NCBI GenBank assembly: GCA_017992765.1
Contig: JAGOOA010000002.1
Coordinates: 85,626-119,119, forward strand
Length of the DNA: 33,494 nucleotides
Reading direction: 5' to 3'
DNA from: Syntrophorhabdaceae bacterium
GTDB taxonomy: Bacteria; Desulfobacterota; Syntrophorhabdia; Syntrophorhabdales; Syntrophorhabdaceae
Part shown: in pieces, positions 8,695 to 9,689 of the stretch
Numbering within the stretch: the first letter of the stretch is position 1
Layout: the number at the start of each line of letters is the position of its first letter
Program-made: the position numbers and the translations under genes
The notes under the pieces: model-generated
Told to the model about the DNA's origin: nothing
What the model saw: the letters and a program-made list of their open reading frames with translations, nothing else
Database searches by the model: none

Positions 8695-8711
8695 AATTAT
8701 AATAATTTCTA

Positions 8712-8740
8712 TTGACAAAAAAACAGTTATGTTCTATTAT
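8712..8740 (+). promoter_or_regulatory. strong sigma70-type promoter in the hemW-tolQ spacer
   Basis: TTGACA (8712-8717, perfect) and TATTAT (8735-8740, five of six) are separated by exactly 17 bases. There is no ORF of note directly downstream. The first gene, tolQ, starts 272 bases later, beyond a terminator. The promoter therefore appears to serve the RNA at about 8747-8959. Confidence 0.65.
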
Positions 8741-8746
8741 TAAATC

Positions 8747-8959
8747 AAGGTATGTTAAATAATTCACAATATAGCTATTCTGAAATATTTGATAATTGTG
8801 GGTTTTTAAAATATGCCTCTGCATTGTGTTGAAATGACTTTGTAAGGAAAGGTAATTAAGTACATTTCTTCACAAGGTAGCTAAAACAGCAAAACCACCT
8901 CCATAGCTTCTCATAATAACCCCCCTTCCCCCTGGGAACCCACCCAGGGGGTTTTCTTT
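8747..8959 (+). ncRNA. candidate small RNA with own promoter and terminator
   Basis: The interval runs from about seven bases after a near-consensus promoter to the end of a strong intrinsic terminator, giving a transcript of about 210 bases. It is AT-rich compared with the flanking genes and has no coding pattern. A CACAAT/ATTGTG pairing closes a possible 5' hairpin (near 8763-8798). Close to the 3' end lies CCACCTCC (8895-8902), which is complementary to Shine-Dalgarno sequences and could pair with mRNA ribosome sites. I do not recognise a known RNA family; it does not look like tmRNA, RNase P or SRP RNA. It could alternatively be a long leader of tolQ controlled by termination. Confidence 0.45.
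8928..8959 (+). terminator. intrinsic terminator
   Basis: A perfect nine-base stem, CCCCCTGGG (8928-8936) with CCCAGGGGG (8943-8951), has a six-base loop and is followed at once by TTTTCTTT. It ends transcription from the promoter at 8712, and read-through from lepA-hemW, before tolQ. Confidence 0.88.
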
Positions 8960-9011
8960 GGCAGGTGTTTTTCTTTACAAGGATAACCTTTTGTTGTAAG
9001 ATGTTTGCGAA

Positions 9012-9689
9012 ATGGGTTTATCCAGCCTCAATGCATACTCCGGCGGACTTTTCAGCCTAATCTATTCAGCGGGTCCTGTGGCAAAGGCCGTCATGCTGAT
9101 CCTCTTAATCTTTTCCATCATTTCCTGGACGATAATGTTTGTAAAGTTTCGTCAGTATGGGAGAACGGAAAGGGAGGCGGAACGTTTTTTTCATGCCGCA
9201 CGGGAGGCCGATTCCTTTAAAAAGCTCATAACCATATACAGAGAGAGTCCCGACAATTCTTTTTACAGGCTCATACTGGCGTGCTACAAAGAGATCACCA
9301 AGAGGCAAAAAGAGAACAACCCGGAAATAAAACAGGAAACAATTCCAATTATCGAGAATGCGATGAGGATAACGATCTCCGAGGAAACGACAAGGCTTGA
9401 ACGGAGGCTCTCATTCCTTGCGACGACCGCCAACGCCTCACCCTTTATCGGCCTCTTCGGTACTGTCTGGGGGATCATGGACTCTTTCCGGGAGATCGGC
9501 GTCAGGGGAACGACAAGCCTTGCCGTTGTGGCTCCCGGCATAAGCGAAGCGCTCATTGCAACCGCGATGGGGCTTGCGGCGGCCATCCCCGCAGTTCTTG
9601 CGTACAATTACTTTTCGGGCAGGCTCAAAAGGATCATGTCGAGGATGGAGAACGCTTCCCTGTACCTCATCAACCTCATTGGAAAATGA
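9012..9689 (+). CDS. tolQ: TolQ/ExbB-family proton channel subunit
   Basis: The 225-residue inner-membrane protein is of the MotA/TolQ/ExbB family. With TolR it uses the proton gradient to drive a partner that reaches toward the outer membrane. Three membrane segments are visible: one near residues 22-45 (AVMLILLIFSIISWTIMFV), and two in the C-terminal half (FIGLFGTVWGIMDSF and ALIATAMGLAAAIPAVLAYNYF), the latter being the conserved channel signature. The cytoplasmic loop lies between the first and second segments. It is the first gene of tolQ-tolR-tolA-uppP; its stop overlaps the tolR ATG by four bases. The ribosome site before 9012 is weak. TolQ is preferred over ExbB because of the TolA-like third gene, but this is not certain. 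Confidence 0.88.
   Translation: MGLSSLNAYSGGLFSLIYSAGPVAKAVMLILLIFSIISWTIMFVKFRQYGRTEREAERFFHAAREADSFKKLITIYRESPDNSFYRLILACYKEITKRQKENNPEIKQETIPIIENAMRITISEETTRLERRLSFLATTANASPFIGLFGTVWGIMDSFREIGVRGTTSLAVVAPGISEALIATAMGLAAAIPAVLAYNYFSGRLKRIMSRMENASLYLINLIGK

Follow-up and report, generated by a model that had tools for sequence, protein, structure and literature searches.

The closest described counterpart of the element reported here is RoxS/RsaE, a small RNA of Bacillus subtilis and Staphylococcus aureus that has C-rich pairing regions. In Bacillus subtilis, roxS carries a Rex site immediately downstream of its start (PMC5419742), and the published Rex consensus is TTGTGAANNNNTTCACAA (PMC6391272). 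In the literature that we found, a small RNA is described as a Rex target for RoxS/RsaE only. The element, a predicted small RNA, shares with RoxS/RsaE a C-rich character, with candidate pairing regions, and a candidate role in NADH/NAD+ balance, and it shares with Rex regulons an 18-bp operator, a host that encodes Rex, and energy-metabolism genes beside other sites. It differs from RoxS/RsaE in its predicted length of ~213 nt, in its two operators ~105 bp apart, in the internal open frame found in many genera, and in its host, which belongs to the Desulfobacterota rather than the Firmicutes. Rfam scans returned no sequence or structure match to the RsaE family even at lax thresholds, placing the element outside that family by sequence.

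The window (the whole stretch of DNA that was analyzed, 33,494 nt) contains, between hemW (TIGR00539) upstream and tolQ (TIGR02796) downstream, an unannotated unit bounded by promoter P1 and an intrinsic terminator. Its features are as follows:

8712-8740, plus strand: promoter P1, with -35 TTGACA at 8712-8717, a 17-bp spacer and -10 TATTAT at 8735-8740; 11 of 12 consensus positions match, and the start is expected at ~8747.
8747-8959, plus strand: predicted small RNA of ~213 nt, as delimited by promoter and terminator.
8752-8769, no strand assigned: operator O1, ATGTTAAATAATTCACAA, a perfect match to the Rex-type pattern WTGTKAANNNNTTMACAW, at ~+5 to +22 of the predicted transcript.
8752-8832, plus strand: leaderless open frame of 26 codons here, MLNNSQYSYSEIFDNCGFLKYASALC, with a TGA stop; 41-51 codons in most other genera.
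8858-8875, no strand assigned: weaker second operator O2, AAGTACATTTCTTCACAA, 106 bp from O1; matrix score 4.1, rank 9 in the window.
8894-8927, plus strand: C-rich invariant segment ACCACCTCCATAGCTTCTCATAATAACCCCCCTT, a candidate mRNA-pairing region identified in alignments and unpaired in predicted folds.
8928-8959, plus strand: intrinsic terminator, CCCCCTGGG - AACCCA - CCCAGGGGG, then TTTTCTTT; conserved in relatives.
8974-9002, plus strand: separate tolQ promoter, TTTACA-17-TAAGAT, conserved in nearly all relatives; the tolQ ATG is at 9012.

The sequence-only reading had described a near-consensus promoter and a perfect nine-base-pair terminator with a T-run at this locus, and both are present where it placed them, the latter as a hairpin at 8928-8951 with 9 pairs and a 6-nt loop. 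Since shuffled versions of the surrounding 3 kb yielded similar sites (2.7 weaker promoter-like and 3.8 terminator-like), a single promoter or terminator is unremarkable; it is conservation that exceeds chance. A DNA search with positions 8700-8970 matched 42 of 60 relatives, representing the whole genus, nearly the whole family and most sampled members of the order, and none outside the order Syntrophorhabdales. In nearly every relative read (43 loci, three families), both TTGACA and the 17-bp spacer were exact and the -10 was TATAAT-like, and the distance from the -10 to the palindrome was mostly 9-11 bp across the relatives inspected. Promoter, operator, C-rich core and terminator were preserved over three families, whereas the flanks diverged. 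The last ~65 nt were almost invariant: the terminator stem and the C-rich stretch before it were nearly unchanged in alignments of relatives, and the 3' end, CACCTCCATAAGCTTCTCATAATAACCCCCCTTCCCCCTGGG-loop-CCCAGGGGG-T, was kept almost intact, while TolQ itself is only ~70% identical between genera. The sequence-only reading had stated that its proposal would fail if relatives sharing this gene order did not conserve the promoter and terminator; both proved to be conserved throughout the order.

A covariance model of the 3' module found one copy per genome within Syntrophorhabdales. Applied to 395 genomes of the phylum, it found nothing credible beyond the order, returning four weak matches (E 5e-4 to 0.01). 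The three of these that were read proved to be unrelated: one was a G/C-rich inverted repeat, one lay 3' of a cobalamin-riboswitch-like stretch and one was an ordinary terminator, and none had tolQ. An apparent second copy in one genome (G003) was rejected as a paralogue, as it represents the end of a broken contig, and a search of IMG/VR viral contigs did not recover the core pattern. The terminator is too invariant for covariation and is thus uninformative regarding RNA structure, while an apparently covarying hairpin 5' of the core is more readily accounted for by the palindrome of O2. No Rfam family was assigned, whether at the gathering threshold or at relaxed ones (best sub-threshold match E 0.26-0.5), bearing out the earlier remark that the element fits no known RNA family. 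The best sub-threshold matches, Ref84 (RF02846; 24.6 bits) and csRNA (RF02379; 19 bits), resemble the element in having a C-rich stretch followed by a terminator, but these scores are far under the respective gathering scores (52 and 57) and reflect mostly the terminator and C content.

We next considered the relationship of the element to tolQ. In every relative with enough contig, tolQ is the next gene, and hemW lies upstream in some genera only. The constant presence of tolQ, which is not required for action in trans, counts against a purely trans-acting RNA, and would fit an element that serves as the 5' leader or attenuator of tolQ with no separate RNA. We consider this latter reading very unlikely. 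Judged from sequence, tolQ is not transcribed through the element; instead, the terminator is followed directly by a conserved promoter for tolQ (TTTACA-17/18-TATATT-like in relatives), with the tolQ start 5-13 nt past the -10 in most of them, and tolQ is probably read from its own leaderless transcript. Furthermore, the terminator is strong, predicted folds contain no competing antiterminator helix, and in four genomes the gap between terminator and tolQ spans ~200-330 bp (L032-L034 in G030, G034 and G010, and L155 in G012). The tolQ promoter and these gaps support the earlier description of the RNA as free-standing. One of the four, G012, was considered as an instance of the RNA without tolQ and rejected, as tolQ lies ~330 bp further on. 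In the window, the tolQ promoter abuts the sRNA terminator, and the ATG is 9 nt past the -10 (8974-9012). A loose inverted repeat, TTTACAA...TTGTAA, occurs near the tolQ promoter in many relatives.

Two features of the locus, the predicted Rex operator and the open frame, had been missed by the sequence-only reading. O1 is an 18-bp palindrome ~11 bp 3' of the -10, which fits the Rex consensus in the relaxed form WTGTKAANNNNTTMACAW and, as in roxS, lies directly 3' of the (predicted) start; the promoter thus bears an 18-bp palindrome of the TTGTGAANNNNTTCACAA type. Using a matrix trained on non-sRNA sites alone, O1 ranked first of all 18-mers in the window, with a score of 24.0 vs 9.1 for the next. 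This genome contains 3 perfect Rex-pattern sites compared to 0 for a control pattern, and with one mismatch 13 compared to 2. Perfect sites numbered 1-7 per genome in 42 of 42 genomes of families f1 and f3, where the control pattern occurred 0-1 times. Other recurrent perfect sites precede genes for acetyl-CoA synthetase, F0F1 ATP synthase subunit A and a glutaryl-CoA-type dehydrogenase, a set in keeping with a regulon for redox and energy metabolism. Of the 46 genomes examined, 45 encode Rex, and the Rex protein of this genome scores above the NCBIfam equivalog cut-off (NF003993). Many genomes of the family (G010, G012, G017, G021 and others) encode a second protein with a Rex N-terminal domain; the genus of the window has one such protein.

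The four genomes of family f2 (G037, G039, G041 and G043) possessed no perfect Rex-pattern site, and Rex was found in 3 of the 4; the operator may have drifted in this family. That f2 encodes Rex yet lacks a perfect site, and that the 18-bp CRP/FNR-type palindrome TTGTGA-N6-TCACAA overlaps in form with TTGTGAA-N4-TTCACAA, might instead indicate that O1 serves a different factor whose palindrome has a similar form (CRP/FNR or HcpR type), in which case the RNA would be regulated, but not by NADH via Rex. We regard this as quite improbable, as the sites keep the inner AA and TT of the Rex consensus and precede energy-metabolism genes, and Rex is nearly universal in the order. We consider it likely that the locus is a free-standing sRNA gene, present in one copy per genome and conserved throughout Syntrophorhabdales, that is repressed by Rex, the NADH/NAD+ sensor.

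Paired Rex-like sites were also observed elsewhere. At one locus (L156, G000 C15:18200-20600), an identical one-mismatch site, TTGTAAATCGTTTCACAT, occurs at positions 968 and 1195, 227 bp apart, within a locally duplicated, partly masked segment in which a small frame begins. Two identical TTGTTAAATAATTCACAT sites lie ~9 kb apart on one contig each in G022 (C105:18077/27116) and G027 (C17:143/8976), and these pairs are possible extra Rex targets.

O2 is weak in the genus of the window, in contrast to many other genera, in which its matrix score is 8-19. The O1-O2 interval was 103-106 bp at 34 of 38 loci, 114, 116 and 117 bp at three, and 100 bp at one, corresponding to approximately 10 or 11 helical turns; the sequence between the operators is otherwise unconserved. 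Distances of 103, 104, 106 and 116 bp cannot be explained by a reading-frame constraint. In family f3 (G038, G040 and G042), the strong promoter is located at the second site instead, again with a gap of 11 bp, which leaves the first site as an upstream accessory. Retention of the operator pair while the promoter moved suggests that O1 and O2 may be bound cooperatively or by looping.

Between the operators, the sequence-only reading had found nothing encoded, a claim that is now doubtful. An open frame starts inside O1 in most genera and is strongly depleted of stop codons. Among 19 divergent loci with an ATG at the operator, this frame contained 11 stops compared to 29-68 in the other five frames, and 15 of the 19 were open across the O1-O2 interval vs 1.4 expected. 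Where O1 begins with TTG, the frame is closed. The O1-O2 region is likely translated in many genera, or was so in the past, which weighs against a plain sRNA. These findings, together with some sign of purifying selection among close relatives (pN/pS 0.43 and 0.23), raise the question of whether the locus is mainly a Rex-controlled small-protein gene, with a leaderless mRNA encoding a 26-51-residue peptide, MLNNS(Q/H)..., and the C-rich 3' part as its untranslated end. This reading appears unlikely to us. It is the non-coding 3' end that is best conserved, while in the genus of the window (26-42 codons), several other genera and family f3 the frame is either short or closed. Moreover, pN/pS is ~1 in the genus of the window and 0.8-0.9 in two other comparisons, the middles of the peptides are unrelated between genera, and MLNNS and the terminal residues are imposed by the operator sequence. 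Amino-acid constraint on the frame is weak (pN/pS 0.23 to 1.05), and the data do not support a conserved function for the peptide. On the minus strand, a mini-frame covering the core (MRSLWR) was discarded, as it is broken by a one-base difference in the genus of the window.

The C-rich 3' segment is the candidate pairing region of the predicted sRNA. Its invariant core is CTTCTCATAATWACYCCCC (8909-8927). Further 5', CCACCTCC (8895-8902) is kept in most relatives but not conserved in one family of the order: family f2 keeps CTTCTCATAATTACTCCCC without CACCTCC, and the anti-Shine-Dalgarno stretch is therefore not part of the invariant core. In many genera the segment contains (A)UCACCUCC, the very sequence of the 16S rRNA anti-Shine-Dalgarno end. 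The sequence-only reading had suggested that CCACCTCC could pair with ribosome-binding sites. Pairing energies computed for 338 start regions reached -20 kcal/mol or lower at 66 sites compared to 37 in gene interiors, providing a mild preference for starts over interiors, although these values barely exceeded those of shuffled controls. Target prediction on the 338 genes singled out no convincing target. The suggested pairing of CCACCTCC with ribosome-binding sites is thus weakly supported, and pairing of the C-rich segment with mRNA targets is no more than plausible. Hfq was not found in any of the 12 genomes examined (control genomes were positive), and the element is accordingly unlike Hfq-dependent sRNAs, whose hosts encode Hfq.

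A combination of these features can also be envisioned, namely a dual-purpose redox RNA which Rex silences by bridging both operators, ten helical turns apart; once released, the leaderless transcript is first translated between them, and its 3' segment, with (A)UCACCUCC in many genera, mimics the anti-Shine-Dalgarno sequence broadly and, free of Hfq, reduces translation at high NADH. We view this as doubtful. The best-supported reading is that the element is a Rex-repressed, C-rich, Hfq-independent sRNA, an analogue of RoxS/RsaE that arose by convergence and is not homologous to it in sequence. According to the model that we favor for this sRNA, at low NADH Rex would occupy O1 just 3' of the start and block transcription, probably aided by O2 some ten helical turns away. 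A rise in NADH would release Rex, allowing synthesis from P1 of the ~213-nt RNA, ended by its own terminator. The unpaired C-rich 3' segment (ACCUCC...CUUCUCAUAAUAACCCCCC) would then pair, without Hfq, with G-rich ribosome-binding regions and down-regulate those mRNAs, which would help to restore redox balance, as RoxS/RsaE does.

Members of the Syntrophorhabdales live by syntrophic oxidation near what thermodynamics allows, and in this range it is the NADH/NAD+ ratio that determines whether metabolism can proceed. If this reading is correct, the element would be, as far as the literature searched shows, both the first Rex-controlled small RNA outside the Firmicutes and the first family of sRNAs reported from Syntrophorhabdales. 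It would also mean that the combination of Rex with a C-rich sRNA arose twice independently, here in hosts in which no Hfq was detected.
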